Shown one piece after another: positions 3,903-59,132 of a stretch of DNA of 64,000 bases. Each line of letters opens with the position of its first letter. The stretch's first letter is position 1. The DNA comes from Spinacia oleracea. Taxonomy: Eukaryota > Streptophyta > Magnoliopsida > Caryophyllales > Amaranthaceae. The notes below the pieces were generated by a model. It saw only the letters and a list, made by a program, of their open reading frames with translations, searched no databases and was not told the DNA's origin. A program made the translations under genes and the position numbers. The stretch covers positions 105,124,141 through 105,188,140 of the forward strand of contig NC_079487.1 in the NCBI RefSeq assembly GCF_020520425.1, written 5' to 3'.

Positions 3903-4589
3903 ATTAACTTTTGTGAAATGTTTAAAATGAATATATTTATGAGTAGCGGGATGATAAAGTTTATAGATGTAAATGAGCCGATATAAATTGTAAGATATAT
4001 GTGTTTGAATTGGCCAAAGTTTTGTTAATGCTCGATTCACCTTCAAAGTATAGATTTCAAATAATATAATAAATGTGCCTTAAATACTCAATTTCAAATA
4101 ATGCAATAAATGTGTCATAAACATTCAATTTCAACCTTACCACGTGTAAAAACTAGTCTTATATGCACGCGATGCGTGCGAGTATTAAAAAAAACTAAAA
4201 ATTGTGCTATATAAGTATATAATATACCAAGAAATATTTTGCAATCTAAGGGACATTTCTTCTGATCTTATAAAGTAAAATATAAACTCAGTCTACTTAT
4301 AAGAACTGTGTTCTAAAACAGAAGCTGAGGAATACAGATTAATTATTTAATTCTAGCTCAAAGTAATGGTCTAAAATGAAATCAGGGTGGTTGCTTTCTT
4401 AACATTTGAGAACTCAGAGCTTAACCCCCCTACAACAGGTAATCCTAGCTGTAAGAACTCTTTTTCTTGTTCCTCTTTTGACTTGGATTCCTCCGGGTTT
4501 GGGTTTGGGTTTGAGGTTGAGTTTATGTGACTGTTAGTTCTGGCTAAGATGTTGTTCCTGTTCATAACACACCGTCACCCCTCGTTCCT

Positions 4590-5283
4590 GACAACCTCAT
4601 GAACCACAAAGTGAAGTAGAGTTGTCTTCCCATCACTGCTTTTGTAATCAGAGAGCTTCCTCTAGGTGCACCAAGTGCTTTCAAACACTTCCCACGCGCT
4701 TTCTCCGACATTTTCGCACCAAAGTACCCAAACATGCAAAATCCACAAAATAGATTCATCATAACAAATCATTACAACAACACAATCCTAATTAATCCAA
4801 TCAAATGACAAAGGCGGCATCTTTACAGTATATAATGTTAACTTTGTAAAATAGGCTTGGCCGGAATCCAAGTCAGAACACTTGTATCCCTGTTCATCCC
4901 ATAATCAATTGGCTATATAGGTGGAGTAATTTTGCGATCACTCTATTAGTCTCCAACCCGAGACAACTCACTCTAATAGATTTCAGTATGACAAATACTG
5001 ATCTAACCCCAAAATGGGTCACAAAAAATTCAATTTTCGTACAACAATAATCAAAATAACATATTACAATTCCAAAAATTCCAAAAAATACACATCTAGA
5101 TACTACTAAAATTGGGGAGAAATACAGAAATGGCTCATCAAATTTGAGGAAGACGATGAACTTACGGAGAAGTGTCAAATAAGTTGATACCCTGATTAAA
5201 AGCTTCAATAACAGTCGCAATTGATTGTTCCTCAGAAACATCACCGAAAACCTTGCCAAGGGGAGTGCCAACAATATGGTCAA
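4590..5283 (-). pseudogene. Captured L-galactose dehydrogenase fragment, two exons
   Basis: Exon A (about 5283-5166, minus) encodes GTPLGKVFGDVSEEQSIATV, followed by IEAFNQGINLFDTSP and then a GTAAGT donor. Exon B (about 4745-4590) encodes YFGAKMSEKARGKCLKALGA followed by PRG. Together they match the start of plant L-galactose dehydrogenase, an aldo/keto-reductase fold enzyme of ascorbate synthesis (family pattern: FGPVAEDDAV...INFFDTSP-YYGG-LSE-LGK-LKAL). Exon B has no clean AG acceptor and the rest of the enzyme is missing, including the active-site Lys and His regions. A functional enzyme is therefore excluded. Confidence 0.75.
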
Positions 5284-6059
5284 AGCACAATTATGAGCAA
5301 GTCAAAGGCATTTAGATTTTACCATAAATATCTAGCATTTTTTTTAGTACAACCAATCAATCCACAACTTATAACCACAACTTTTTAGTAGACAAGAGAC
5401 ACCAGGTTGCTCCCTAGCATAGACCCGGCCTAATTGAACCTAACGGACTACGGAAGACAGAAGATAACCACTCGTTGCTAGAACCAAAACAACAAATAAG
5501 GGATGGGGCACTACACTAGTACGTCAGTACCTATACATTTCACAGTATGCAAGGGAACTATGAGTTTTCTACTATTAGAGTAGGTTTTGGATCATGTTAC
5601 AGTAAAATAGTTCTATGAGCAGACTTAAGTTTAATCAATCTTATAAGTTGCTGTCAATTTCAAACAGCAGTAAAATCTAACAAATTTGGTAGGATTAAAT
5701 AACCAGTAACCACATCAATTCACAGAATTAGAATGTCATAATAATCCTTGGAGATTCTTTTGCCTTGTGTAGTAAGTATGGGTTTAGAGAAATCATATAA
5801 AATATAAGTATATGTTCAAAAATCTCCACATTAAACCACCCATTAGTTCTTTTTTCATTTCAACACCCTCTTTTGTTCTGTACCGTCTTGTTAGTTACCG
5901 AAAAAAATTATAAAAATGGTTGTGCATATTCTGAAGCGAAAATGGTACACAATTCGGACAGTTTTGTGGTAAAAGCATGTGTTCCTTCCTATATATGATA
6001 CCTAGTCAAAATTGGCACATAAAAACCAAGTATAAGATATAATTTGGTGGAAACAACCT

Positions 6060-6170
6060 GCTTGGAAAGCGTTGAAGATCATCTACAGCATGAAGAAATA
6101 TCAACTTCTGCAACCTCCATGGCATTGCAGACCCATTCAGGTAGATCGCCTTTGGGAAACTGCATAAACA
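6060..6170 (-). pseudogene. Captured exon-like fragment of unknown origin
   Basis: On the minus strand this segment reads without stop in at least one frame (FPKGDLPEWVCNAMEVAEV, or in another frame MPWRLQKLIFLHAVDDLQRF). It ends near a GCAG|GTTG junction. A similar short piece sits at about 6367-6420. I do not recognise the parent gene. It lies inside the Helitron between the GalDH and CKS1 fragments. Confidence 0.35.
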
Positions 6171-6503
6171 TCATATAAAAAGGTCATTTGAATTACACTC
6201 CGTACCAAAAAAAAAAAAGGGAATGTATTTCAGTTGAGTTACCATTTTCTGTAAAATAATAACAAACCTGCAGAATTGAAAGTCGTAAAAGTGATGATAG
6301 GACTCAAAACAACAGTAAGATTGGTGAAGTAAATACAGTATGAATCATAAAAGTTTAGTTACGTACAATGGAAAGCGTTGCTCAACAATAGATGTATGAA
6401 GATCTCTGCTTAACTGGACAAAATTTCCACAACAAAATCATGGATATGAGCTTAAACTGTTAAAACTAATCAAGTATACTAACACACTAATAAAAATCAA
6501 TAC

Positions 6504-6556
6504 CTGTATTCGTAAGTATCATCAAAGTACTTCTCAGAGTACTGGATCTGACCCAT
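6504..6556 (-). pseudogene. Captured first exon of CKS1 (cyclin-dependent kinase regulatory subunit)
   Basis: The minus strand from the ATG at 6556 encodes MGQIQYSEKYFDDTYEYR up to the split codon, followed by AG|GTATTG. This is the nearly invariant N-terminus of plant CKS1/SUC1 proteins, which bind CDKs. The intron position after EY(R) is consistent with the parent gene structure as I recall it. The following sequence does not encode the expected HVVLPPEV exon, so only the first exon was taken. The match is short but very specific. Confidence 0.8.
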
Positions 6557-6633
6557 TTTCGCCTTCAATCGCACAAATAAATAAAATGAAGAACAATAAA
6601 AATAAGCAATCATGAATTACCTTGGGCCTGGAA

Positions 6634-6728
6634 CTGGTATTTTTCTAACTAAGAGAGTTCCACCTTCGGTCCCAATTGTAGGAGCCATCTCCTGTCCTTT
6701 ATTCCAATGTAAAAAGGTTACTTTGCCC
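6634..6728 (-). pseudogene. Captured exon of unidentified gene
   Basis: The minus strand reads open through VTFLHWNKGQEMAPTIGTEG and GTLLVRKIPVPGP. It is bounded by a TTTTTTTCAG acceptor (about 6729) and a CCAAG|GTAATTC donor. Exon-like borders and codon structure suggest a true captured exon. I cannot name the parent protein. Confidence 0.45.
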
Positions 6729-7024
6729 TGAAAAAAATTCAAGAACAAATCAATTCATTAAGTATAATCATGATTCATGATAGTAACTCAATCAACCCGA
6801 TTCACAAAATCACAACTACCAGCAACCACCATCTATGTAATGCAAAAAGCTGTTAATTTTGTACCCTAAATTGGATATAGTATTAAGCTATTAATGCAAA
6901 AAGCACTTAATTTTGCAATTAGTTAAGTTGCAAAATCCCAATCTTAAACTCTTAACTGACAAATCTAAAATTAGACTAACATTCAAAATTGAAAGAGGAC
7001 AAAAATGGAAACTTTATTATTACC

Positions 7025-7082
7025 TGGAGTAGCTGGAGTTGATCCAGTGGAAGCCGAAGAAGATGGAGATTGTGCTACATCT
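7025..7082 (-). pseudogene. Captured Ser/Thr/Pro-rich exon fragment
   Basis: The minus strand encodes VAQSPSSSASTGSTPATP between a TTCAG-type acceptor and CCAG|GTAATA. Low complexity prevents identification. A further small exon-like piece (VRKVFDQMTTPFHV, donor GTG|GTATGT) lies at about 7305-7350. Confidence 0.35.
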
Positions 7083-7399
7083 GAACAATAGGGTAAAAGT
7101 TTAATTGAAGTTCAGATTTATGTGTATTAACCATTAATGTATACTTTATACAAAAAAAAAAAAACTAATTTAGTTTTTTAAAGTAATTGAACAATACTAT
7201 TCTGTACTACTTGAATTATCAAATGCAAATTAAGAAAACCACCATGGTTGATTTATCCATTCTAAAAGGCTGAAATGAAATGAAAGAAAGCAACATACCA
7301 CATGAAATGGTGTTGTCATTTGATCAAACACCTTACGGACAGAACCAAACAACAGAATTGAGAGTCAATGAAGGAGAAAAAATGGCTTACAATAGCATT

Positions 7400-7535
7400 G
7401 AAAAGAAATCGTCAACATTAGGGAGACCAACACTGCCAGCTCTCAAGTACTGATCTTCCCCTACTACCGTGAATGAGTGGTTTGCAACTAAGAAGAAGAG
7501 CTCTTGGTTTAAGGCCGCGTTGATCACTCGTATTA
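7400..7535 (-). pseudogene. Captured laccase exon fragment
   Basis: The minus strand encodes LIRVINAALNQELFFLVANH then SFTVVGEDQYL. This matches the second cupredoxin domain of plant laccases (pattern LLR-INAALN-ELFF-IA-H-FTVV-VDA-Y). The reading frame then continues into non-laccase residues and stops near 7387. Only about 30 residues of a ~570-residue copper oxidase are present, without the type-1 or trinuclear copper ligands. Confidence 0.75.
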
Positions 7536-7959
7536 ATCATCAATTCATTAAAGTTTCTTATTTACTAAGTTTAAATTAATGGTTACAATTTGAATAAGAA
7601 GATAATTTAAATAAACATTAAAATAAAAACAAAAAACCAAAATCCAAAATCCAAAACCCAAAACCCAAAACAGGAAGAAAATATTGAATGACATGAAGAT
7701 CCGATTTTAGAGATAACCTAATTGATTGACCATGAATTGTAAACAACGATTTTTGGTAATGCTAAACTACCCACCCTAAATTAATCATTTCTAGACTAAA
7801 CACTATACAATCACATCAACAATATCCAATCAAAACAAATTTATCCAAAAATCATAAATTCGCCTCTGCAAAAACTTCACCCAAAAAAAATTCTAAATTC
7901 ACATACGACCAAATTGACATAAGTAAAGCAAAATTGAAACAGTAATTAAACGAAAATAA

Positions 7960-8245
7960 GAAATTGGGAAACTCAACTGGTTAGATGATGATGAAGGTTT
8001 TGATTTTTGAAGAGATTCAACGTGAAAAGGGCCGATCGATGCAACCTCCTTATCCATCCCCACCAATTGATGATTAAAAAACCTCAATAACACAAAGATG
8101 AAACAAATAAGAAAAATGAGTTATAATCTGTTTCTTGAGAAATGAATAGAACTGGAAAAGCAGCGAGTGAGAACTCAATAACACAAATCAAATACCGATC
8201 TATCTGCAACATTCGACGAAGATGACGAACCCATCTCAAAATCTG
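7960..8245 (-). other. Exon-like segments near the Helitron 5' end, unassigned
   Basis: The minus strand has an ATG-led segment GSSSSSNVADRS followed by GTATTTG (about 8235-8195) and a second open piece MDKEVASIGPFHVESLQKSK (about 8060-7985) with a possible GTTGAG donor. They could be the first exons of a captured gene. The region 8246-8594 is purine-rich Helitron 5' sequence with long GGAGAGAG runs. Confidence 0.3.
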
Positions 8246-10049
8246 ACCCAAACCCCACTTCAATTCGCATTCCAATTTTCCCAAAGTTAACGAATCGAAT
8301 TGGGGATGAACAAAGATTAGGTCTCATATCTTTTAATTAGATCTCGATTTTTTATAAAAAAAATTTATGGATTTTTTCGAGCTGAGATGAACATCGAAGG
8401 AGAGGATGGGAGGGAGGAGAGAGAGAAGACGGGGGAGGAGAGGGGGGAGGAGAGAGAGAAGACTCCCAGGGAGGAGAGCAGGAAGCCATGAAGGGTTGAA
8501 TGTGAATATGTGGGGGTATTTTGGTCAATTCAAAGGTGGACACCAAAAGTTAATTTACAAAACTAACCTCAGCTCTTGGCTTATATAATAGAGATATTTA
8601 ATCTTAATGTGAGTTCAATCACCGACCGAATCAAGACTCGAGTTTAAAACTCAACTTGAACGAGTTAAACTCCCCTTGCACTCGATTCTAATCGTGCACG
8701 GGCCTAACTTATGTCCGATCAATAAACACTAGTTAAAGGTACTTAGTACTCCGTATATCACAATTCACAAGTAAACATTTCAATAACTTAACCTAGTTCT
8801 TGTCTTAATTTTATATGTTGATATTTTATAAGTAAATTATAACAAACTCTAAAACAATTCACATAATCACTGTAATACCCCGAAGTTTTTAAATTTGATT
8901 AATCATGCTTAGTTATTTTTATTTAGCTTAAAATCGTTTTAAATATTAATTTCAAACTTTATTTTAATTAACGAAGTTTTATTTCGCTTGAATTTTTAAT
9001 ATTATTACACGATTTATTAATTTTCAGATTCTATGATTAAATTTCAAATTTTACGAGCTTAAGCTACTTTTTAAAAAATCTAAATTATTCCGTGATTTAT
9101 TTCGGATTTTTAATAATTTCGGAACGTTCTCATTCGAAAATTTATTTTTCGTTAACGATATTTTTATAAATAATTATTTCGAAACTTAGTTTTAATTAAC
9201 CATTTCTATTCTAATTAATTTCCTAATAATATAAATCAATTTTCTGAATTTTGGCCTAATATTGTGAAATTACGAAAATGCCCTTGAAGAGCAAAATTCC
9301 ATTTCACTTCCTCTCCTTGCTCTCCACGTACAAAGCAAGAAGGAGCATTTTTCTTCCTTTCTTCCTTTCCCTTGAAATCAGTCCATGTTCATGCCTTGGC
9401 CTCCAAGGTCTTCACTCTTCTTCTTCACTCTACTTTTCATTATAAACAACCATTTTCTTTCCATTTTTCTAAATCAAAAATCAGTTAACCAAAAATGGAA
9501 ATCACCCCTCCCTTGCTTCCTTTGTTCGAACCGCCACCACCACCAACGACCACTGCAACCACCGACTACCACCACCTCTGCCTGCTGTCTATCACCACCC
9601 AACCACGCAGCCCCATTCACAGCCACCCTCACCACCATCTCCGGCGCAACACCCGACCCAAACACCTCCCTTATTTCTTCTCCTCCTTCGTCGTGACCTC
9701 CCCTGCCCCTCCCCTGCTTTTCGGTTCAACTCACCTCCCCTGACTTTTCTCTTCTTCACGCCCAGCCGCGGGCACCGCCTTTAGGCCGCGCACCACCCTC
9801 CATCTCCTCTGTGCGCAAGCCGCAACCACCGCACCCCCCAGAACCACCCACGTCACGCACAAACTCCCCTGTTTTTGCGTGACCACCCTCTCCCTTTTTC
9901 CTTACGGTTCCGCCGCCGCAGAACCAACCACCATCACCAGCACGAATACGCGCCTCCGTGACGCCCAGACCCCGGTCACCGCCTCCCATCTCTCTTCCCT
10001 CCCCTTCGTGCTTCCGCCTCCCCTGTTCCTCTGCTTCCCCTGTTCTTCG

Positions 10050-11457
10050 TGTTAGGTTATGATACATATGACAATTCATAAATCATGCGGAAAAACCATA
10101 AAGCCAGGAAAACATATTATTTACACATAATCATTTAGCATAGTTTAGATGCATACTCTTTGTTGCGTGCCTTCCCTAGCTGCGCCCGAACCGAACAAGA
10201 ACAAGTCTTTAGGACTCCAAGTGTCGTCCCTCCGTAGATAGTCCACAGCACGTCCGGATCCGCCTTAAGATTGACCAACTAGAATCGCCCTTAAGGTACT
10301 ATTATTTTCGGCACTTTATAGGCAAATGTATGACTGAATTTTTCTCTCAAAAACTCACTTTGAATACTTTAAAACTTGTTATAAATTGTGAGCCCTAGCC
10401 TCATATTTATAGGGGTATGGAAAGGGAATCGAAATCCTATTCAGATACAAATTAATTAAACCTAGAATCCTACAAGAACTCTAATTCAATTAATTTATCA
10501 AATAGAATTAGGAATTTAATCATTAACCGAACTCTGCATGTTTTAGGAAACGTGCACGAACACAAACACTTGCACACACACGCACGGCAGCCACGATGGG
10601 CCCCCATGCGTGCGCGCGAGCAGCAGCCCACGCAGCGCCCGCGCGCGCTGCGCGCTGCGCGTGCTGTGCGCGCTGTGCGCGCTGCGCAGCCTGCTGGGCC
10701 TGGCCTTGCGCTGGGCCTGGCGAGGCTGTTTGTGCGGCGCGCTTGGCTTGCTGGGCGATGGCCTGGCTTCGTGCTGGGCCTCGTCCGGCAGGCCTCGTCC
10801 GATGCTTATTCGTACGATGCGCTTCCGATTAAATTTTCCGATTCCGGAATTCATTTCCGATACGAACAATATTTAATATTTCCGATTCCGGAATTAATTT
10901 CCGTTTCGAACAAATATTTAATATTTCCGTTTCCGGAATTATTTTCCGATTCTGGTAATATTTCCGATTCTGACAATATTTCCGTTTCCGGCAATATTTC
11001 CGATTCTGGCAATATTTCCATTTCCGATAATATTTTCCGATACGTACCATGTTTCCGTTTCCGGCAACATCTACGACTTGGATAATATTTATATTTCCGA
11101 TACGATCCATATTTCCGTTTCCGGCAATATCATCGTTTCCGGAGTATTCATTTCTTGCCTGTGACGATCTTAGCTCCCACTGAAACCAAGATCCGTTGGT
11201 TCCGAATATTCATAGATGGAGTATTTAATGCCATTAAATACTTGATCCGTTTACGTACTATTTGTGTGACCCTACGGGTTCAGTCAAGAGTAAGCTGTGG
11301 ATTAATATCATTAATTCCACTTGAACTGAAGCGGCCTCTAGCTAGGCATTCAGCTCACTTGATCTCACTGAATTATTAACTTGTTAATTAATACTGAACC
11401 GCATTTATTAGACTTAACATAGAATGCATACTTGGACCAAGGGCATTATTTCCTTCA
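10050..11457 (-). repeat. 3' LTR of the Copia element
   Basis: 1408 bp, TGTTAGG...CCTTCA on the plus strand. It contains a GC-rich stretch (about 10560-10800) and a run of TTTCCG-based degenerate repeats (10845-11150). Frames across it on both strands are not genes. The other LTR is 6 bp longer because of an extra CTGCGC near 19612. Confidence 0.92.
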
Positions 11458-12320
11458 GTCTCCCACTTGTCCTTAGGGACAAGTGTGCATTTCCTAATTC
11501 CTTTGTCGCTCGATGCTTGCTCTTGAACATAAGGTAAGAGTTGTCATCCTTATTACGTCCAGAGGTGTTCCTCGGTTTCAGAGTTCAACTGATCAAATAA
11601 ACAGATAATCATAGCCTATGATTCATCCGAGCACGGCCATGCATTTCACAGTTTCTAGCTCTCCGAGTGGCCTTGTACAACTTTTAAGCATCTCATCCCG
11701 ATTTATGGGAGGACAATCCCAATCTTGCGATCTTGAGATTAGACTTCGTTTGATAGGTGATTACCTGAGCGTTGCCTTTATAGCCTCCTTTTACGGTGCG
11801 ACGGTTGGTCAACGTCAAAGCAACCAGTTCTCAAACAAGTAATCTCAAATCACTCAGGTATTGAGGATTTAGTGTCTAATAATTTAATGAAATTTACTTA
11901 TGACAGATTTTCATCTCTTACAGTAAAGTTTCATAGGTCTTGTCCGATACTATTCTTCTCAAAGTAAGTATCTATGCAAATGATTATGACATTGCCATGT
12001 CCACATAGTTCAAGAAACAGAACTACTAGTCATCTTGCATTCTAATCGTCTAACGTTTTCTATGCGTCCAATTTTATAGAAAACTCCGATTAGGGACCAT
12101 TTTCAACCTTTGACATTCAATTTCACTTGATAGACATTTCTTAGTCACAGGACTGGTCCTGACAGTCTATCTTGAATATATCGTCAAATTGAAGGGACTC
12201 ATCATTTAAAAAACCATAAATTAAATGGAAAAATGAATTCATTTCATTTATTGTGAATGTTTAACCAATAATGTTTTACAAAGATTTAAACTCTAAACTT
12301 TAAAACATTAAACAGAGACA
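11458..12320 (-). other. 3' internal non-coding region of the Copia element, with purine tract
   Basis: On the minus strand the bases just before the 3' LTR read GGACAAGTGGGAGAC, a polypurine-rich tract that would prime plus-strand synthesis. The ~850 bp between the RNase H stop and the LTR hold no convincing frame. Confidence 0.6.
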
Positions 12321-13079
12321 TCAAAGCCATTCTCCAATATGCTTGATTCCCATAGCTGCAGTGTGCGAGTTGTGCTTCGCCTGCGGCAGAGGTTTAGTTA
12401 ATGGATCTGATATGTTGTCATCAGTTCCAATTTTGCTTATCTCGACTTCTTTTCTTTCAACGAACTCTCGTAGAAGGTGAAATCTACGAAGTACATGCTT
12501 GACTCTCTGGTGGTGTCTAGGCTCTTTTGCCTGTGCAATAGCTCCGTTATTATCACAATACAGGGCTATTGGTCCTTTAATGGAGGGGACTACACCAAGT
12601 TCTCCTATGAACTTCCTTAGCCATATAGCTTCCTTTGCTGCTTCATGTGCAGCAATGTACTCCGCTTCAGTTGTAGAATCCGCAATGGTGCTTTGCTTAG
12701 CACTTTTCCAGCTTACTGCTCCTCCGTTGAGGCAGAAGACAAACCCAGACTGTGATCTAAAATCATCTTTGTCGGTTTGGAAACTTGCGTCCGTATAGCC
12801 TTTAACAATTAATTCATCATCTCCACCATAGACCAGGAAGTCATCTTTGTGCCTTTTCAGGTACTTCAGAATGTTCTTGGCAGCAGTCCAATGCGCCTCT
12901 CCTGGGTCTGACTGGTATCTGCTCGTAGCACTGAGTGCGTACGCAACATCCGGGCGTGTACATATCATAGCATACATTATTGAACCAATCAATGATGCAT
13001 ATGGAATCCCATTCATTCGTCTACGCTCATCAAGTGTTTTTGGGCACTGAGTCTTGCTTAGAGTCATTCCATGAGACAT
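12321..13079 (-). pseudogene. Copia RNase H and C-terminus of RT
   Basis: 252 codons continue the polyprotein after a stop. They include the end of RT (MYAMICTRPDVAYALSATSR) and RNase H, with STTEAEYIAAHEAAKEAIWL and DNNGAIAQAKEPRHHQRVKH. It ends at a normal polyprotein terminus. The MSHG at its head is internal to the family's usual RT, so the piece is separated from RT only by a TGA where the family normally has a sense codon (SK-stop-GYLPMSHG, about 13090). Confidence 0.85.
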
Positions 13080-13091
13080 GGGTAGGTAGCC

Positions 13092-14471
13092 TCACTTGGA
13101 GTCCGCCATCTTGAACCTATCAAGCACCTTATTGATATAAGTGCTTTGACTAAGTCCAATCATCTTTTTAGATCTATCTCTGTAAATCTTGATGCCCAAT
13201 ATGTACTGTGCTTCTCCTAGATCCTTCATCGAAAAACATTTCCCAAGCCAAATCTTGACAGAGTTCAACATAGGAATGTCATTTCCGATAAGAAATATGT
13301 CGTCGACATATAATACTAGGAAAGCAATTTTGCTCCCACTGACCTTCTTGTATACACAAGATTCGTCCGCGTTCTTGATGAAACCAAAGTCACTGACTGC
13401 TTCATCAAAACGTATATTCCAGCTCCTAGATGCCTGCTTCAATCCGTAGATTGACTTCTTTAGCTTGCATACCTTTTTAGCATTCTTTGGATCCTCAAAA
13501 CCTTCAGGCTGTGTCATAAACACAGTTTCTGTTAAAACGCCATTTAAGAAAGCAGTTTTGACATCCATCTGCCATATTTCGTAATCGTAATATGCAGCGA
13601 TTGCTAACATTATTCGAATAGACTTTAGCATTGCAACTGGTGAAAAGGTTTCATCATAATCCACACCGTGGACTTGCCTGTAACCTTTTGCGACCAATCT
13701 AGCTTTGAAAACTTCAAGTTTCCCATCCTTGTCCTTTTTCAGTTTGAAAACCCATTTGCTTCCAATGGCTTGGTAGCCATCTGGCAAATCGACCAAATCC
13801 CATACTTGGTTTTCAGACATGGAGTCTAATTCAGATTGCATGGCTTCTTGCCACTGCTTGGAGCTAGGGCTCGTCATAGCTTGCTTGTAAGTCGCAGGTT
13901 CATCACTTTCAAGTAATAGAACGTCATAGCTCTCGTTCGTCAAAATACCTAAGTATCTTTCCGGTTGAGATCTATATCTTTGCGATCTACGCGGGGTAAC
14001 ATTTCTAGATTGACCATGATTCTCACCAGATTCTTCTAAAGATCTCTGAGTTTCATCCTGAATGTCATCTTGAGCATTCTCTAGAGTTTGTTGTTCGACT
14101 CGAATTTCTTCGAGGTCTACTTTTCTCCCACTTGTCATTTTGGAAATGTGATCCTTCTCCAAAAAGACACCATCTCGAGCAACAAACACTTTGTTCTCAG
14201 ATGTATTGTAGAAGTAATACCCCTTTGTTTCCTTTGGATAGCCCACAAGGATACATTTGTCAGATTTTGGATGAAGTTTTTCTGAAATTAATCGTTTGAC
14301 GTATACTTCACATCCCCAAATCTTAAGAAAAGACACATTTGGAGGCTTTCCAAACCATAATTCGTATGGAGTCTTTTCGACAGCTTTAGACGGAGCTCTA
14401 TTTATAGTGAGTGCAGCTGTATTTAGTGCATGTCCCCAAAATTCTAATGGAAGTTCGGCCTGACCCATCAT
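13092..14471 (-). pseudogene. Copia integrase C-terminus and reverse transcriptase
   Basis: 459 codons. The first ~200 residues are the end of integrase (LPLEFWGHALNTAALTINRA; ETKGYYFYNTSENKVFVARD). Then comes RT with WVFKLKKDKDGKLEVFKARL, MDVKTAFLNGVL and the catalytic YVDD box (LYVDDIFLIGND). The frame ends in a TGA just before the RNase H part. The upstream boundary is a junction with an integrase deletion, not a true start. Confidence 0.88.
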
Positions 14472-15477
14472 TGACCTGACCCATCAATTCTGATAGAATT
14501 CCACATTCTTTCAGATGGTCATCAAATTCATAGCTCAGATATTCACCGCCTCTATCAGACCGCAGTGCCTTAATCTTCTTGCCTAATTGATTCTCTACTT
14601 GACTCTGAAATTCCTTGAATTTGTCAAAGGATTCAGACTTATGCTTCATTAGGTGGACATAACCATACCTACTGAAGTCATCAGTGAAAGTGATAAAGTA
14701 GCTGAAACCACCTCTAGCATTTGTACTCATTGGTCCACATACATCTGTATGGATTAAACCCAATAGTTCATTTGCTCTTTCTCCAACTTTAGAGAAAGGT
14801 TGCTTTGTCATTTTGCCAAGTAAACATGATTCGCATTTACCATAATCCTCTAAGTCAAATGGTTCTAGAATTCCTTCTCTTTGAAGTCTTTCTAAGCGTT
14901 TCAAGTTTATATGGCCTAATCGACAATGCCACAGATAGGTGAGATCTGAATCATCCTTTTTGGCCTTTTTGGTATTTATGTTATATACTTGTTTGTCGTG
15001 ATCTAATAAATAAAGTCCATTGACTAATCTAGCAGATCCATAAAACATCTCTTTAAAATAAAACGAACAACTATTGTCTTTTATTAAAAAGGAAAATCCC
15101 TTAGCATCCAAGCAAGAAACTGAAATGATGTTTTTAGTAAGACTTGGAACATGGAAACATTCTTCCAGTTCCAAAACTAGCCCGGAGGGCAACGACAAAT
15201 AGTAAGTTCCTACGGCTAATGCAGCAATCCGTGCTCCATTTCCCACTCGTAGGTCGACTTCACCCTTGCTTAACTTTCTACTTCTTCTTAGTCCCTGTGG
15301 ATTGGAACATAAGTGTGAGCCACAACCTGTATCTAATACCCAAGAAGTTGAATTAGCAAGTATACAGTCTATAACGAAAATACCTGAAGATGGAACGACT
15401 GTTCCGTTCTTCTGATCTTCCTTTAGCTTTGGACATTCTCTTTTGTAATGGCCTATTCCATCACAATAAAGACAGCT
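14472..15477 (-). pseudogene. Copia zinc knuckle, protease and integrase N-terminal part, deleted at the catalytic Glu
   Basis: Reading from 15477 downward: zinc knuckle CLYCDGIGHYKREC; protease motif WVLDTGCGSH; and integrase with the H-H-C-C finger (HCRLGHINLKRL...CESCLLGK) and the first two catalytic Asp (HTDVCGP, LRSDRGGEY). After HLKECGILSEL the sequence jumps, between two copies of GATGGGTCAGG, to the MMGQAELPLEFW region. Roughly 25 residues that would carry the third catalytic residue (the Glu of the ERRNRT segment) are lost and the frame shifts. Confidence 0.85.
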
Positions 15478-16245
15478 TTATGTGGACTTGTCCTGCTTTG
15501 ATTTAGCATTGCCCTTGGACTTTCCACCTTTCTTGAATGGTCTCTTTCTAGCCTTGAGTAAATCTTTGGCTTCACAGTCCAGTACTATTTCAGCCTTTCT
15601 GACAAGGTGAATAAATTCTGCAACTGTTTCTTCTCTTGGTTCACTTAGGTATAGTTGCTTGAAGCGACCAAACCCACTGTGTAGTGAATTGAGCAAGACA
15701 GAGACTGCCATCCTTTCGCTTATTGGTGTTCCTAGTAGACTTAGGCGATCAAAATATGAACACATAAGATCCACATGGAACCTCAGTGGGACGCCTACCC
15801 TCTGTTTAGTGCGAAGGAGCTGAACATGTGTTTCTTGGACCTCCATCCTATAACACCTGTTGGGAGAACTAACCTTTAGACCAGACATTGATTCAATCAA
15901 CTCATGGACGTTCAGGTCCCTGTCCTCCGTACTTCCACGACAGATATCCCTCAGATTCTTGATGAGCGTAAAAGGTTCATAGGCTACAAACCTTTTAGCC
16001 CAATCATCAGGGATATTGTTCAGCATGAGACTCATAACCTTTTTGAGATCCGCATCCCAGGCGTAAAATCTCTCAGGGGTCATGTCTCTGGTATAGTAGC
16101 TTGGCATGGGATGTGACAGTACATACTCAAGTCCATTGAGTTTGACTATTTCAACTAGCTTAGCTTCCCATTCAAGAAAATTTGTCAGGTTCAGCTTGAC
16201 CATAAGCTCAGAACCCATGATGATGTTTTGATTGTTGTTTGCCAT
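15478..16245 (-). pseudogene. Copia gag
   Basis: 255 codons from MANNNQNIIMGSEL (16245), which I prefer over an upstream in-frame ATG at 16287 because Copia gag proteins usually start with such a motif. Contains the UBN2-type gag core (FLEWEAKLVEIVKL; WAKRFVAYEPFTLIKNLRDI; FIHLVRKAEIVLDCEA) and a basic tail. It terminates at TAA (15478-15480) immediately before the zinc knuckle, in the same frame, so the gag-pol fusion is interrupted. Confidence 0.85.
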
Positions 16246-17864
16246 ATTAAAACTACAATTGAAAAGAATAAACAAATAAATAACCATTCACAGTTTCTCT
16301 TAATAAACTTAAATTCTAGCATACATGCATAATTCAATGTTTATTAAGCATTTTATTCAAATTATGTGTTCCGACAGGTGTGAATAAAATGATTCCAAGA
16401 TCCTAAAATCATTGAAGAACTAAGCACAGTTTGTCGACTTAATCCTAGAACATCTTAGGTAAGCAAAAGCCTTTTGCTAATAGTCTAGAAACTATTCTTG
16501 GTTGATAGGTACGTCTAAGAACTTATTAGGTAAACCTATCGAATTTGCCACGACATAAAAGGACTCCTTACTTATATCGTTGAGTTTCACCAAAACTAAC
16601 ATGTACTCACAATTATTTGTGTACCTTGCCCCTTTAGGACCAATAAGTAACACCTCGCTGAGCGAAAACTATTACTAGATTGATGTAAAGGATATCCAAG
16701 CAAGTGTATATTTTGGCATGGCACCTTTTAACTCAATTTTTAAGTTTGGAACTTAAGGCTCTTACTATGTTGGTTAGATTTTAAGTGAACTAAAATCCTT
16801 AATCATGCAACATAATCAAGCTTTTGATCTCATGCATTTTAAGACATATTTAAAACAATAAATAACTTAAAACATGCATAAGATATTTGTGATCTAGTAT
16901 GGCCCGACTTCATCTTGAAGCTTTGACTTCAAAGTCCGTCTTGAAAATCTCCGTGGGAGGCACCATTTTCTTCAAATAGGATAAGCTATAACTAATTACA
17001 ACTATTTGATGGTTCGCAGACCATATTTGAATTGAAAAATAACTTTGGTACTTTAGACCAATTACATTCAAATTAATGGTACGCAGACCATATTTTCTAT
17101 CCTATTTGGGCCATACTAGTCACTTCATAACCTGCAAAACAGTACATATACAATATATACCATTCACCCATTCATTATCATGAATGGCCCACATAGCTGG
17201 TTAGTAAAACACATTATGCATCACGTAAACATTTGCAGCAATTAATCAAGGACACCAATAATCTACCAATTATTCAGTCCTTATTAATTCTAATCAAGTT
17301 GTTTTAACCTTAAGGATTTGTAGACCTAATCAAGAGTTTATGACTAAAAATCGCTCCCACTTAAACCAATAAATTTATATGCTTTACTAATTTTAAACAT
17401 AAAAATGTATTTCTAGTTCAACCGGAAACATACAAATTTAATTAAAATTTAAAGCTCATATAAACTTATAATTGAATCCAAAAAGTTTAATTTAATTTCA
17501 GTCGCATTTAAATTAATTCATGATTTTAATTTTAGTAAAATAATTAGAATAAATAAAATTTATTATAATTACAATATTCAAAATTAAAATCCAAGAAAAT
17601 AATTTAAATTATTAATTTTAAAATTAATTAAAATTACGTGAACTGGAATTTTCAAATTAAACATTCAAAACGATCTTTAATCGTAACGCAAACACCCTAC
17701 GCGTTGCACGCCCATGGGCCGCACGCACACAGCCATTGCTGGCCATGTGCGCGCAGCCCATGCGCTCGTCGCATAGCTGCTGCATTCCCATCGCAAGCCT
17801 CCGCACGCATTGGTGCTCGCTGCGCGCGCCAGCGCTCATCGCACGCGAGCTATCGCTCGCAGTG

Positions 17865-18040
17865 CGCGCGCGACATCGCTCGCTGGGCGCGCGACATCGC
17901 TCGCTGGTCGCGCGAGCCATCGCTCGCTGGGCGCGCGAGCCATCGCTCGCTGGGCGCGCGAGCCATCGCTCGCTTGGCGCGCGACATCGCTCGCTGGGCG
18001 GGCGACATCGCTCGCTGTGCGCGCGAGCAATGCTGGGCGC
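17865..18040. repeat. GC-rich minisatellite in the Copia leader
   Basis: About seven units of 21 or 23 bp built on ATCGCTCGCTGGGCGCGCGA, alternating CGACATCGC and CGAGCCATCGC forms. Surrounding sequence to 18350 has degenerate related words. It gives long open frames in several frames at once, which is a composition effect. Confidence 0.85.
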
Positions 18041-18984
18041 AGCGCTCGTGGCACGCGAGCTTGCGTTCGCTGCGCGCGAGGCTGCGCGCGTTGTGGCGCA
18101 GCTCGCTTGTTGCCCACACGCGACTGCCTTGGCTCGCCCTTCGCCCATGCCCATTCGTCCATTGCTCGTGGCACACGACACAAGGCAGGGCTGCTGCCTT
18201 GTGCTCGTGCACTACGCCCTTGCTCATTGCATTCGTGCCGCACGGGCGACGAGCTCCCTTGCTAGTCGTCGCATGCCCGCATTATACAACACCCCTTAAG
18301 GGTAACACGAAGCGTCCATTGCTTCGTGCGTGCAAGTTTTATGAACGAATCGCATAAAAAATTTAAAATTTATATTTAAAATTAATGACAAATTAATAAA
18401 TAATATTAATTTCATAATTTTAGGGCGAAAAAATCGAAAATTTATTATCCAATTGATTTCCGATTGTTATGGATTCAAGTCTAGGTCATAAAAATTTAAA
18501 ATTTATCATAAATTTACAATTTTTATGGTGGTTTTTAATCATATGTTTCTAATTAAATTACAATTAATTATTAAAATCAAATTAATTCTAAATTATTCTA
18601 ATTTTCAACAAATTAATCATAATTACAAATTAGATTGCATAATTAACAAGACTAGGCATTCAAACTTGTTAAACATATGCAGTAGGTCAATCAAAAATTC
18701 AAGATTTATCAACAAGAATCGCAAATATTTAATTTAACATCTTAAATTTACGAAATTTTGCATTCGAAAAACTAAAATTTTAGAATGCCTTTTACATGCG
18801 GAATTGACACAAAAATCACTCAATTCGGATGAGTAACGAAGAAACTGCCGAAAAACTGCGTACGTATAATTAAATAAACGCAATTTGCAATTAATTAACA
18901 ATTACGAAAATTAATCACCCCTTTTAATTCTTGCAAATTTGTAATATTTAACCATGTTCATGCAATTTAGATTATGAAAATAAT

Positions 18985-19003
18985 AAGGGGCTCGTGATAC
19001 CAC
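18985..19003 (-). other. Primer-binding site of the Copia element
   Basis: Directly after the 5' LTR terminus (minus strand ...CCTAACA) the sequence reads GTGGTATCACGAGCCCC. This resembles the initiator-Met tRNA site TGGTATCAGAGCC with one extra C. Confidence 0.65.
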
Positions 19004-20417
19004 TGTTAGGTTATGATACATATGACAATTCATAAATCATGCGGAAAAACCATAAAGCCAGGAAAACATATTATTTACACATAATCATTTAGCATAGTTT
19101 AGATGCATACTCTTTGTTGCGTGCCTTCCCTAGCTGCGCCCGAACCGAACAAGAACACGTCTTTAGGACTCCAAGTGTCGTCCCTCCGTAGATAGTCCAC
19201 AGCACGTCCGGATCCGCCTTAAGATTGACCAACTAGAATCGCCCTTAAGGTACTATTATTTTCGGCACTTTATAGGCAAATGTATGACTGAATTTTTCTC
19301 TCAAAAACTCACTTTGAATACTTTAAAACTTGTTATAAATTGTGAGCCCTAGCCTCATATTTATAGGGGTATGGAAAGGGAATCGAAATCCTATTCAGAT
19401 ACAAATTAATTAAACCTAGAATCCTACAAGAACTCTAATTCAATTAATTTATCAAATAGAATTAGGAATTTAATCATTAACCGAACTCTGCATGTTTTAG
19501 GAAACGTGCACGAACACAAACACTTGCACACACACGCACGGCAGCCACGATGGGCCCCCATGCGTGCGCGCGAGCAGCAGCCCACGCAGCGCCCGCGCGC
19601 GCTGCGCGCTGCGCCTGCGCGTGCTGTGCGCGCTGTGCGCGCTGCGCAGCCTGCTGGGCCTGGCCTTGCGCTGGGCCTGGCGAGGCTGTTTGTGCGGCGC
19701 GCTTGGCTTGCTGGGCGATGGCCTGGCTTCGTGCTGGGCCTCGTCCGGCAGGCCTCGTCCGATGCTTATTCGTACGATGCGCTTCCGATTAAATTTTCCG
19801 ATTCCGGAATTCATTTCCGATACGAACAATATTTAATATTTCCGATTCCGGAATTAATTTCCGTTTCGAACAAATATTTAATATTTCCGTTTCCGGAATT
19901 ATTTTCCGATTCTGGTAATATTTCCGATTCTGACAATATTTCCGTTTCCGGCAATATTTCCGATTCTGGCAATATTTCCATTTCCGATAATATTTTCCGA
20001 TACGTACCATATTTCCGTTTCCGGCAACATCTACGACTTGGATAATATTTATATTTCCGATACGATCCATATTTCCGTTTCCGGCAATATCATCGTTTCC
20101 GGAGTATTCATTTCTTGCCTGTGACGATCTTAGCTCCCACTGAAACCAAGATCCGTTGGTTCCGAATATTCATAGATGGAGTATTTAATGCCATTAAATA
20201 CTTGATCCGTTTACGTACTATTTGTGTGACCCTACGTGTTCAGTCAAGAGTAAGCTGTGGATTAATATCATTAATTCCACTTGAACTGAAGCGGCCTCTA
20301 GCTAGGCATTCAGCTCACTTGATCTCACTGAATTATTAACTTGTTAATTAATACTGAACCGCATTTATTAGACTTAACATAGAATGCATACTTGGACCAA
20401 GGGCATTATTTCCTTCA
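19004..20417 (-). repeat. 5' LTR of the Copia element
   Basis: 1414 bp, near-identical to 10050-11457. Visible differences: A/C near 10213/19157, the CTGCGC insertion, G/A near 11050/20010 and G/T near 11276/20236. The promoter for the element is expected here; I did not resolve a TATA box. Confidence 0.92.
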
Positions 20418-41064: not shown

Positions 41065-42180
41065 GTAACCTTTCTTACTGTGATATTTTGCATTCTTGTC
41101 TCCAAAAACAAACTATAAATAACTATTTTGTAGTGGAGCATTCAGATCTCTTGGGAATTTTTTAGCAAGTCCTTCATGTTGGCTTTAATAAGTTCCCTCT
41201 TGTGCCTTGTCTAGCCTATTTTATATCCAAAATGGTGAGAAACTCTTGCAATACTGCGTAGGGTATGCCTTGTTGCTTTACTGTTGTGACTTGTGAGCAA
41301 TGGGTGGAACCCATCTCCTACATTTTGCACGCTAAAAACATTTCCGATTTTGATTGTTAGGGTTTGATTTTTTTCCGATTTTGATTGTTAATTTAACTGG
41401 GGGACATTTATATGACGGTTTATTAATATAATGGGGAATGCCTTCATTATTGCATTTTAGACTTCAGAGATTCATATTTTGGTAAATGTATCAGTTTACT
41501 TGACTCAAGCTTGGTATGAAATGTGTGTGGATTATGATTGTATTGGACCATTGGTGTTTAATGTTTATGCTTCATGGTAATACATTGGGTTATAATGGTT
41601 TATGTTATTCAAGATTATATTCATTGACTGAAATAGGTGTTGTTGTTTAGCCTTGTTTTTCATTAAGAGATAAGCATGCTATGATTCGCTTTTCTGTTGT
41701 TGCTGCAAATTTCCCTACCTTTTTTCTTTAATAATCGACATGTGTTGGTTATGAAGCCTATTACAGATCTTAATTACTGTTTTATTTATTATTTTTGTGC
41801 AATTTTGGCTAATTCTTTCAATTGGGTTGCTGTGGATTGATCTGCAGCAACACCTTGACTTCAATGTTGATCTGGATTGATCTGCAGCAACACCTGAACT
41901 TCAATGTTGTTTATGGTAGAGTGAGCAGGCGCAAGGTCCCAATCTCAAAGTTGTGGCAGCTAAGCTGGCTACTGATCTGCACGTACTGATCTGCACATCA
42001 GTTACTTGCATTTTCCATAATGAGATACAACTAGGATAGCCAACAATTTGGGCTGTTGTCTGACCGGTTTTCCTCCTCACGCGAAAATCGAATACTGGTG
42101 AGCATGTCCATCAGTCTCTAAATATTTTCTCAGAGTATTACACTTATTACATGTTTAATATGAATAGTTTTAACTTTCTA
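41065..42180 (+). other. CACTA interior without recognised genes
   Basis: Intron-like T-rich sequence. It includes a short direct repeat of GATTGATCTGCAGCAACACC at 41855 and 41878, and a possible exon-like piece at 41900-41990. No assignment is possible. Confidence 0.35.
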
Positions 42181-43965
42181 ACACTCATTCCAATCTACTT
42201 ATGCAAATTTAAGGCTTGTTTGGTCGTTATAGGTCATATTAGGCTAAAATGAGGCTTTTTTGCTCCCAAATATGAAATAAAGAACCTTAGGACTCATTTT
42301 AAACATACTAAATGTTTTATATGATTAGTTTTAACTTTACAAGACTTAATCCAATCTATTTATGCACATTCATGACTTCTTTGGCCGTTATAGGTCATAT
42401 TTAGGCTAAAATGACATTTTCGCTCCCAACTTTGATCTAACGAACTTAAAAACTAATTTCAAACTTATTACATGATTCATATGATTATTTTTAACTTTTC
42501 AAGACTCAATCCTATCTATTATGCACATTTGAGACTTGTTTGGTCGTTATAGGTCATATTTAAGCTAAAATGAGACATTTTCGCTCCTAACCTTGAACTA
42601 AAGAACCTAAAGACTCATTTTAAACCCTTTACATGATTAATATGCTTAGTTTTAACTTTCTAAGACTCATTTCAATCTATTTATTCACATTTAAGGTTTA
42701 TTGGGTCGTTATAGGTCATATTAAAGCTAAAATGAAGCATTTTCGCTCCCAACTTTGAACTAAAGAACCTAATGACTCATTTTAAACTTTTTACATGTTT
42801 AATATGCATAGTTTTAACTTTCTAACACTCATTCCAATCTATTAATGCACATTTAAGGCTCATTGGTTCGTTATAGGTCATATTTAGGCTAAAATGATAT
42901 TTTCGCTCCCAAATTTGAACTCAAGAACCTATAAGGACTTATTTTAAACTTTGTACATGATTAATATGCTTAGTTTGAAGTTTCCAAGACTTATTCCAAT
43001 CTATTTATGCACATTTAAGGTTTGTTTGGTGGTTATTGGCCATATTTAGGCTAAAATGAGCATTTTCTCTCCCAAATTTGAAATAAAGAACCTAAGGACT
43101 CATTTTAAACCTTTTAAATGATTAATATACTTAGCTTTAAGTTTCCAAGACTCGTTCCAATCTATTTATGCACATTTAAGGTTCATTGGGTCGTTATAGG
43201 TCTTATTTAGGCTGGATTGACATTTTCGCTCCCAACTTTGAACTAAAGAACCTAATGACTCATTTTAAACTTTTTACATGTTTAATATGCATAGTTTTAA
43301 CTTTCTAAGACTCATTCGAATCTATTAATGCACATTTAAGGCTCATTGGTTCGTTATAGGTCATATTTAGGCTACAATGATATTTTCGCTCCCAAATTTG
43401 AACTCAAGAACCTAAGGACTTATTTTAAACTTTGTACATGATTAATATGCTTAGTTTGAAGTTTCCAAGACTTATTCCAATCTATTTATGCACATTTAAG
43501 GTTTGTTTGGTGGTTATTGGCCATATTTAGGCTAAAATGAGCATTTTCTCTCCCAATTTTGAAATAAAGAACCTAAGAACTCATTTTAAACCTTTTAAAT
43601 GATTAATATACTTAGCTTTAAGTTTCCAAGACTCGTTCCAATCTATTTATGCACATTTAAGGTTCATTGGGTCGTTATAGGTCTTATTTAGGCTGGATTG
43701 ACATTTTCGCTCCCAACTTTGAACTAAAGAACCTAATGACTCATTTTAAACTTTTTACATGTTTAATATGCATAGTTTTAACTTTCTAAGACTCATTCCA
43801 ATCTATTTACGCACATTTAAGGCTCATTGGGTCGTTATAGGTTTTATTTAGGCTAAAATGACATTTTCGCTCCCAAATTTGAGCTACATAACCTAAGAAT
43901 TCATTTTATACCTTTTATATGATTAATATGCTTAGCTTTAAGTTTCCAAGACTATTAGGACATTG
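42180..43965. repeat. Tandem array of ~160-bp units inside the CACTA
   Basis: The marker TCGTTATAGGTCATATT (or GGTTATTGGCCATATT) recurs at about 42225, 42386, 42545, 42706, 42869, 43031, 43191, 43351, 43512, 43672 and 43832, a period of 159-163 bp over about 11 units. Units around 42869-43190 are more like those at 43351-43670 than like their neighbours, so there is a three-unit (~481 bp) higher-order period in the second half. Confidence 0.9.
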
Positions 43966-44140: not shown

Positions 44141-44454
44141 TGGCTTGAGCGCGCTTGATCGAGGTGGTTTAGTCGTTATAGAACAATCGTTTACATTAAA
44201 ATGTATGCGTACATTGAAATTGGAACGTATATTTGAATGTAGTACGTGCACTTTGGTTTTGGGATATATATATATATGTATACAAAACACCAGTTATTAT
44301 TTTTTATATTTGTTCTACAGGTTGCGATATTTTATTTATTGTTGTTGACAGGTTCCTATATTTGGTGCAAGACACCCTAGGTATAGATAAATAAAACTAA
44401 AATTTTCCCGCCAAAAGCACAGCTTTGTTGCAGGGGGCATATACTTGTTCGCTG

Positions 44455-44690
44455 CAACAAGGGTGTAAAATTAGGCAAAAATCAAGACTTGTTGCAGCGT
44501 ACAAAATGATGTACGCTGCAACAGACTGGTTTGTTGCAGCGAACAAAATGATGTACGCTGCAACAGACTGGTTTGTTGCAGCGTACAAATAAAAGCCCGC
44601 TGCAACAAACCAGTCTGTTGCAGCGTACATCATTTTGTACGCTGCAACAAGTCTTGATTTTTGCCTAATTTTACACACTTGTTGCAGAGT
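44455..44690. repeat. Inverted repeat in the CACTA right subterminal region
   Basis: GTGTAAAATTAGGCAAAAAT then CAAGACTTGTTGCAGCGTAC (from 44462) is repeated in reverse complement ending near 44680, with CAACAGACTGG/CCAGTCTGTTG and CATCATTTTGTACGCTGC between them. Arms are about 100 bp and near perfect. Confidence 0.8.
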
Positions 44691-45016
44691 ACATGCAAAT
44701 GTACGCTGCAAAAAAGTACTTTTCGCAGCGTACATTGTACGTTGCAACAAGTCAATACTTGTTGCAGGCCCCCCAGTTGCAGCATACGATGTACGCTGCA
44801 ACAGGGGTCTAAAAGCCCGCTGCAACAAGGGTTTTTTCTACTAGTGTATTAATCAATAATCATATACAGGACCGTCTCAGGAAATTTAGAGGTCCTGTGC
44901 TAAATGCAAATATTAGGTCCTAAATATTAGGTCCTATAAAATTTTGAGGATAATTATTTAAGGTAAAATGCATAATTATTATAGTATTAATATTGTTTTG
45001 TGTATAAAAAAATATA

Positions 45017-58344: not shown

Positions 58345-58380
58345 CTAGTCTTATATGCACGCGATGCGTGCAAAATATAT
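58345..58380 (-). mobile_element. Helitron 3' terminus, same family as the 4.4-kb element
   Basis: CTAG at 58345-58348 with the hairpin GCACGCGATGCGTGC. The first ~30 bp are identical to 4153-4182. The matching 5' end was not found to the right, so only the terminus is called. A more degenerate CTAG-type end lies near 58772. Confidence 0.65.
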
Positions 58381-58901: not shown

Positions 58902-59132
58902 AATAAATATGCCAAATACATCAGAACTAATTTGCTAACTTTTTCTTAGACATAGTCCATAATAAATTTAGAGTGATCCATGTCAATGGTTAATGCTAAA
59001 TTCTTTCCTACCAAGGTACCTTGTATTAAAGAATTTAGCATTAACCATTGACATGGATCACTCTAAATTTATTATGGACTATGTCTAAGAAAAAGTTAGC
59101 AAATTAGTTATGATGTATTTGACATATTTATT
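58902..59132. repeat. Near-perfect loopless palindrome at the CACTA truncation point
   Basis: Arms of about 115 bp (58902-59017 and 59018-59132) pair with only a few mismatches around the centre CAAGGTACCTTG. Examples: ATTTGCTAACTTTTTCTTAG / CTAAGAAAAAGTTAGCAAAT and GATCCATGTCAATGGTTAAT / ATTAACCATTGACATGGATC. The right arm runs straight into transposase coding sequence (VFDIFIPNKTKDTLKARKDL). Confidence 0.9.

Follow-up and report, generated by a model that had tools for sequence, protein, structure and literature searches.

The 64,000 nucleotides of Spinacia oleracea DNA analysed here (the window; C1:105124141-105188140, contig NC_079487.1, in a genome of 894 Mb with six large contigs) contain, at positions 4153-8594, a non-autonomous Helitron that carries fragments of eight host genes. 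From 5' to 3' these are pieces of a laccase, a YchF-like GTPase, a lipid-transfer protein, an S26-peptidase-like protein, CKS1, tRNA-guanine transglycosylase (TGT), L-galactose dehydrogenase (GalDH) and a formin; all are in sense orientation relative to the Helitron, and together they occupy 3,023 of its 4,442 bp. Near-identical full-length copies lie on two other chromosomes, and several of the pieces retain intron sequence. The element almost certainly belongs to a lineage that acquired its cargo by copying short stretches of eight host genes, as DNA, into the space between its ends.

Termini, copies and an empty site

An earlier note on this DNA had placed a Helitron at exactly these borders, and both the end motifs and the two additional full-length copies agree with it. 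The element reads on the minus strand, its 5' side being the right-hand end of the interval; positions within it are given as h, counted from the 5' end (8595 minus the window coordinate). With both strands read, the minus strand starts with TCTCTATTATATAAGCCAAGAGCTGAGG at 8594, directly after an A, and ends with GCACGCATCGCGTGCATATAAGACTAG at 4153, where CTAG comes last and a T follows. These are features of plant-type Helitrons: a TC start (TCTCTATTATATAAG), a CTRR end (here CTAG) after a short hairpin, insertion between A and T without target duplication, and movement as a defined unit, seen here as three copies with identical borders. The 3' hairpin has a 6-bp stem and a 3-nt loop, lies 12 nt upstream of the element end, and, as single-stranded DNA, has a folding energy of -6.9 kcal/mol (z -2.67; 4 of 200 shuffles equally good). 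Genome-wide, the final 27 nt together with the target T have 790 exact matches (394 forward, 396 reverse; reversed-pattern control 0), and a partly degenerate pattern of the target A plus the first 28 nt has 154 (74 and 80; control 0). Neither end is an inverted copy of the other, and classification as a Pack-MULE, CACTA or other Pack-type transposon with terminal inverted repeats was rejected.

Genome searches scored the best candidates only (about 40 for DNA), which makes the copy counts lower bounds. The two further full-length copies lie at C5:66011018-66015498 and C4:95697067-95701493, putting the element on three chromosomes in all. Between any two copies there are 19-24 substitutions (p-distance 0.43-0.54%), along with length changes of 5-38 columns, of which several fall within simple repeats. 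Private changes number 11, 13 and 8; two-state differences among three copies are always private, so all that follows from these figures is that no pair is much closer than the others. The flanks of the three copies are mutually unrelated, with an A on the left and a T on the right in each. Since near-identical full-length copies are found on other chromosomes, the unit must have moved after the captures took place. The divergence of about 0.5% points to a recent spread as one unit. A substitution rate of about 7e-9 per site per year would put the spread, as a rough guide, at a few hundred thousand years.

The earlier note had made its proposal depend on insertion between A and T, and here the evidence is of two kinds. 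All 13 full-length elements (the three copies and ten relatives, whose ends were paired by us) have A/T flanks, and one copy has a paralogous empty site. The C4 copy interrupts a long terminal repeat (LTR) ten bases from the LTR end; its joined flanks match the LTR family continuously across the joint, where the LTR start reads TGTTAGGTTA^TGATACA. Six LTR copies run uninterrupted across this A^T, two in the window (10050 and 19002) and one each in loci L013, L016, L022 and L027. The overlap on the short side is about 10 bases, the length of LTR remaining there. One more locus (in L004, L011 and L033) aligns up to the insertion site only and is uninformative, and the joined flanks of nine other copies found no uninterrupted match in the fetched regions that were searched. 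No target-site duplication is present in the flanks of the C1 and C4 copies; those of the C5 copy are TA repeats on both sides, where a short duplication cannot be judged.

The window also holds a full-length LTR retrotransposon at 10050-20417, copia-type by eye, whose two LTRs of about 1.4 kb are 99.4% alike and which has a 5-bp duplication, CTTCG, on both sides.

Gene pieces and their candidate sources

Three genes had been named by the earlier note (GalDH, the first exon of CKS1 and a laccase exon), together with at least three further exon-like pieces, all in the same orientation and with intron remnants. Alignments to source loci bear out the three named genes, five more pieces can now be named, and a piece of about 109 bp and a 5' part of about 1 kb remain without a name (Table 1). 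The common orientation holds for eight of eight pieces. Each has a candidate source gene, these being spread over five of the six large contigs (C1, C2, C4, C5 and C6), although some matches are short or diverged. The alignments exceed short coding words, the condition on which the note had staked its reading: the TGT piece matches C2:111992229 at 84% over 1,117 bp, the GalDH piece matches the gene at C4:179566273-179568803 at 79% and 85% across an intron, and the S26-like piece matches its source at 95.5% over 156 bp. Intron sequence is kept in several places. The GalDH piece runs across an intron and the lipid-transfer piece into one, and the S26-like and CKS1 pieces pass putative splice donors. 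Capture was therefore from DNA and not from cDNA, and processed pseudogenes were rejected on the same ground.

Table 1. Parts of the Helitron in window coordinates
Feature	Position	Strand	Details
Non-autonomous Helitron, whole	4153..8594	minus	4,442 bp; 5' end 8594, 3' end 4153; A/T flanks
5' terminus	8580..8594	minus	TCTCTATTATATAAG; common to 3 copies and 10 related elements
5' part without named source	7533..8594	minus	common to several sister Helitrons, 87-91%
Laccase exon piece	7453..7532	minus, sense	80 bp; Pfam Cu-oxidase 1.5e-5 (above cut-off)
YchF/Obg-like GTPase piece	7311..7447	minus, sense	137 bp; 88.7% to C1:100043928
Lipid-transfer-protein gene piece	6731..7303	minus, sense	573 bp; start region joined to later exon and intron
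S26-peptidase-like exon piece and sequence past donor	6578..6733	minus, sense	156 bp; 95.5% to C5:1559484
CKS1 exon 1 with start codon, short upstream part, intron start	6493..6587	minus, sense	95 bp
TGT gene, 3' part	5380..6496	minus, sense	1,117 bp; exon content by eye
Unnamed 109-bp piece	5269..5377	minus	13 other listed places besides sister elements
GalDH, parts of two exons and intervening intron	4660..5265	minus, sense	606 bp
Formin FH2 exon piece	4384..4661	minus, sense	278 bp; Pfam FH2 1.4e-8
3' terminus	4153..4179	minus	hairpin GCACGC-ATC-GCGTGC (4165-4179), then ATATAAGACTAG

At C1:109205938 lies the candidate laccase source, a gene whose open frame is 360 aa long and which is 85% identical to the piece at the DNA level. 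The laccase reading frame of the element is a fusion, its C-terminal part (YLRAGSVGLPNV...) belonging to the GTPase piece. L047 and two like places were rejected as the laccase gene: they carry the laccase piece, with no laccase gene shown. At the GTPase source the frame matches MMR_HSR1 (2.6e-6); the YchF label is our assumption, taken from this general GTPase model and the motif order. The lipid-transfer piece is internally deleted, the middle of the gene being absent, and aligns as three pieces of 83-96% to C6:150776195 (L039), where LTP_2 scores 3.7e-15; to call this gene 'GPI-anchored' would be presumption. The same deleted form, 93% alike, occurs at C6:22056879 and C2:26830272. L027 and L038 hold the deleted piece beside Helitron-like ends and are thus relatives, not source genes. 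The S26-peptidase name is likewise presumed, the piece itself having given no Pfam or PDB match.

The CKS1 piece is 94.7% identical over its 95 bp to C4:182848513, where the exons together match Pfam CKS at 1.7e-37; on its own it gives a weak family match (Pfam CKS 0.0054, below the cut-off; PDB 0.033). Frames of the TGT piece gave no Pfam match. The GalDH piece matches PDB 7smi at 8.7e-27 and Pfam Aldo_ket_red at 0.015, below the cut-off, and the first two exons of its source gene are identical in 136 of 136 residues to 7smi, which we take to be the spinach enzyme. The formin piece is 95.3% identical to C1:125421317, inside a 457-aa open frame; its FH2 score sits at the Pfam cut-off and was obtained from two frames put end to end. 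With the pieces searched alone, Pfam gave no match beyond Cu-oxidase, FH2, CKS and Aldo_ket_red. L028, L048 and L049 were rejected as source genes: the latter two hold only fragments of pieces, and L028 has a GalDH/formin fragment beside a long frame that by eye resembles a long interspersed nuclear element. The unnamed 109-bp piece matches neither the GalDH nor the TGT locus significantly, and in four sister elements about 76 extra bp lie between it and the GalDH match.

Elsewhere in the window lie a satellite array at 42138-43953 (160-bp unit, about 11 copies) and palindromic inverted repeats at 58902-59132 (95.7% over 232 columns) and 44423-44716 (86.5% over 296 columns).

Sister elements and the assembly of the cargo

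The element was compared by BLAST with 20 fetched regions, and eleven elements were then compared all against all. Ten relatives have both ends inside these regions, as paired by us; at the other loci a single end is present. The ten share their termini with the element and differ in the cargo of the middle, with A before and T after in 10 of 10. H14, H15, H16 and H19 are 3.9-kb elements that are 99% alike; H24 and H26 measure 3.0 kb, H21 and H22 about 4.0 kb, H17 3.8 kb and H18a 4.7 kb. The left part of the element, overall from h1-964 to h1-1705, is found in one set of loci (h1-1705 in L011 and L012; h1-1254 in L014-L016 and L019) and the right part, from h2731-3275 to h4442, in another (L013, L017, L018 and L020-L023). 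Left and right parts thus occur in separate sister elements, and the S26-like and CKS1 pieces sit between them. The S26-like piece was seen only in the three copies and at its source locus (40 scored of 85 candidates). For CKS1, the listing has nine more places apart from the gene itself; two of the nine were fetched, and both lie close to Helitron ends and hold longer CKS1 stretches. The CKS1 piece may, judging from such loci, have come from another Helitron instead of the gene.

Some of these loci have structures of their own. A second Helitron 5' end abuts the shared part in L011 (3067-3147) and L012 (3013-3093), where similarity to the element stops at base 1705, which suggests a nested or fused Helitron. 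In L018 (C4:6115000-6124999), two related right halves of Helitrons lie in opposite orientations, with about 3 kb separating them. In the window itself, a second Helitron 3' end lies at 58345-58371; its 27 bp equal the element's own 3' end exactly, and the window showed no 5' end to go with it. The genome has at least 154 matches to Helitron_like_N, several in open frames of more than 1,000 aa, so that putative autonomous Helitrons are present.

How could such an element have been put together? As in the Helitron family generally, it would have moved by rolling-circle replication, with Rep/helicase supplied from elsewhere. Short stretches of eight host genes would have been copied between its ends over several rounds. 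Each capture would have used a short match, through strand switching or through end-joining. In this view the element unites a left lineage, with the 5' end and the laccase, GTPase and lipid-transfer pieces, and a right lineage, with the TGT, GalDH and formin pieces and the 3' end; the S26-like and CKS1 pieces stand at the junction. Such a union of two lineages around small gene pieces is preferred because left and right parts are found in separate sister elements, the S26-like piece was seen only in the copies and the source, and CKS1 occurs elsewhere; it need not have been a single event. A sharper version, rather unlikely on present evidence, is a single Helitron-by-Helitron recombination accompanied by a family-wide sense preference: the strand would exit the first lineage in the lipid-transfer piece, copy 156 bp of S26-like and 95 bp of CKS1 sequence via matches of 3-10 bp, and re-enter the second lineage in TGT. 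If true, it would mean that a new mobile unit was made during a rolling-circle or repair event.

Four of the seven joints between pieces have overlaps: 3 bp at lipid-transfer/S26, an inexact 10 bp at S26/CKS1, four T at CKS1/TGT and 2 bp at GalDH/formin. The S26-like and CKS1 pieces together differ in identity from TGT (Fisher p 9e-7), a contrast confounded by the share of constrained exon sequence. The sense orientation of all eight pieces has a two-sided p of 0.008. Single frames of at least 32 aa were scanned in the cargo of sister elements: 28 out of 86 in sense and 22 out of 96 in antisense. Of these, an initial 20 (18 sense, 2 antisense) were selected by eye and nearly all the others by length. 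In the middles of five sister elements the sense families are PARG (1.4e-5), GT47 (2.1e-7), PPR (4.1e-5), Skp1 (6.8e-30) and pyridine-nucleotide oxidoreductase (2.8e-4), and the antisense ones DUF1191 (1.3e-4) and cystatin (0.0012); only Skp1 passes the Pfam cut-off, and a weaker sense match, EDRF1 (0.009), was excluded from the count. Family-wide, 13 of 15 pieces are sense (p 0.007), an excess that is indicative only, since the strands were scanned unevenly. If true, the family favours sense-oriented pieces, which would fit capture at, or selection through, transcription.

Several observations weigh against this account of the captures. No source is named for 1,419 bp of the element. The laccase match covers 80 bp at 85% identity, the candidate sources of the lipid-transfer and GalDH pieces show divergence, and for TGT the naming came from an exon outside the captured stretch (TGT 8e-21, about 2.7 kb upstream). 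Helitron-like loci L041 and L042 also hold CKS1 pieces. Of the seven joints, three have no overlap (a 5-bp gap at laccase/GTPase, a 7-bp gap at GTPase/lipid-transfer, and 114 bp at TGT/GalDH, a stretch that contains the unnamed piece), and the overlaps at the others are stated without a chance control. No autonomous partner was identified: none of 17 listed Rep matches (C1:1-109 Mb) has the element's exact 3' end within 240 kb downstream, in a search that used the exact 3' end only and the listed part of C1 (100 of the 790 ends).

Could the pieces instead be a processed or segmental pseudogene cluster, flanked by Helitron-like ends by chance and never mobile as a whole? Every piece is indeed a fragment, and pieces of the same genes are found elsewhere too. 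Such a cluster is refuted by the three full-length copies, which share exact borders and lie in unrelated A^T flanks on three chromosomes, and the retained introns exclude an origin in cDNA; the idea is hardly credible. A serious if less probable variant of the capture account is that most pieces arrived by way of other Helitrons, through insertion of one Helitron into another or read-through to a second 3' end, and not by direct capture. Pieces of laccase, GTPase, lipid-transfer, TGT, GalDH, formin and CKS1 all occur in other loci, several with Helitron ends; the second 5' end in L011 and L012 is of this kind, and nested Helitrons are a route proposed in maize (PMC3288121). The confinement of the S26-like piece to the copies and the source among 40 scored of 85 candidates, however, makes at least one piece look directly captured, and no internal Helitron 5' or 3' terminus was seen on comparing the element with the window.

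Expression is a separate matter. Transcription of the element into a chimeric RNA, which the earlier note had raised, is possible from its layout: all pieces are sense, some splice donors appear by eye to be retained, and the lipid-transfer/S26 joint sets a T-rich stretch before CAG, a possible acceptor. That a spliced chimeric RNA or protein would matter to the plant is improbable, as there is no long open frame; the longest stop-free stretch, 135 aa, overlaps the GalDH piece out of the GalDH frame. The element most likely has no function beyond its own spread.

Comparison with other gene-capturing transposons

Multi-gene capture by Helitrons is well described in maize, as the earlier note had stated. 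Dong et al. (2011, PMC3288121) count 1,649 maize Helitrons and give 0-12 gene fragments for each helA element (mean 3); from related elements with common ends they argue that capture was stepwise. The spinach element resembles helA and helB in its CTAG end, its several unrelated fragments and its relatives with shared ends and different cargo, and its eight named pieces in 4.4 kb fall in the upper part of the helA range (PMC3288121). It differs in the plant concerned, and in having candidate sources for all eight pieces as well as joint positions. A spinach repeat survey lists 1,297 Helitrons, 0.91% of the genome; in its main text the stem 'captur' occurs once, about images, so that Helitron capture is not reported there under that word (PMC6337768). 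No report of multi-gene-capture Helitrons in spinach was found in the literature, subscription papers being mostly outside the scope.

Pack-MULEs and the gene-carrying CACTA elements of soybean and Chenopodium likewise mobilise host-gene fragments into chimeras. These transposons have terminal inverted repeats and target-site duplications, whereas the element described here lacks terminal inverted repeats and inserts at A^T. Multi-gene capture is ordinary for Helitrons as a class, and the element is a new instance that is unusually complete in detail: a largely attributed multi-gene Helitron outside the grasses, with sister elements that represent partial intermediates and joints placed to within a few bases. 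It is also a warning for annotation, as a frame like the 'laccase' one is made of fused fragments and is not a gene. With 790 exact 3' ends and several cargoes, the spinach genome is usable as a test bed for the uptake of gene pieces by Helitrons.

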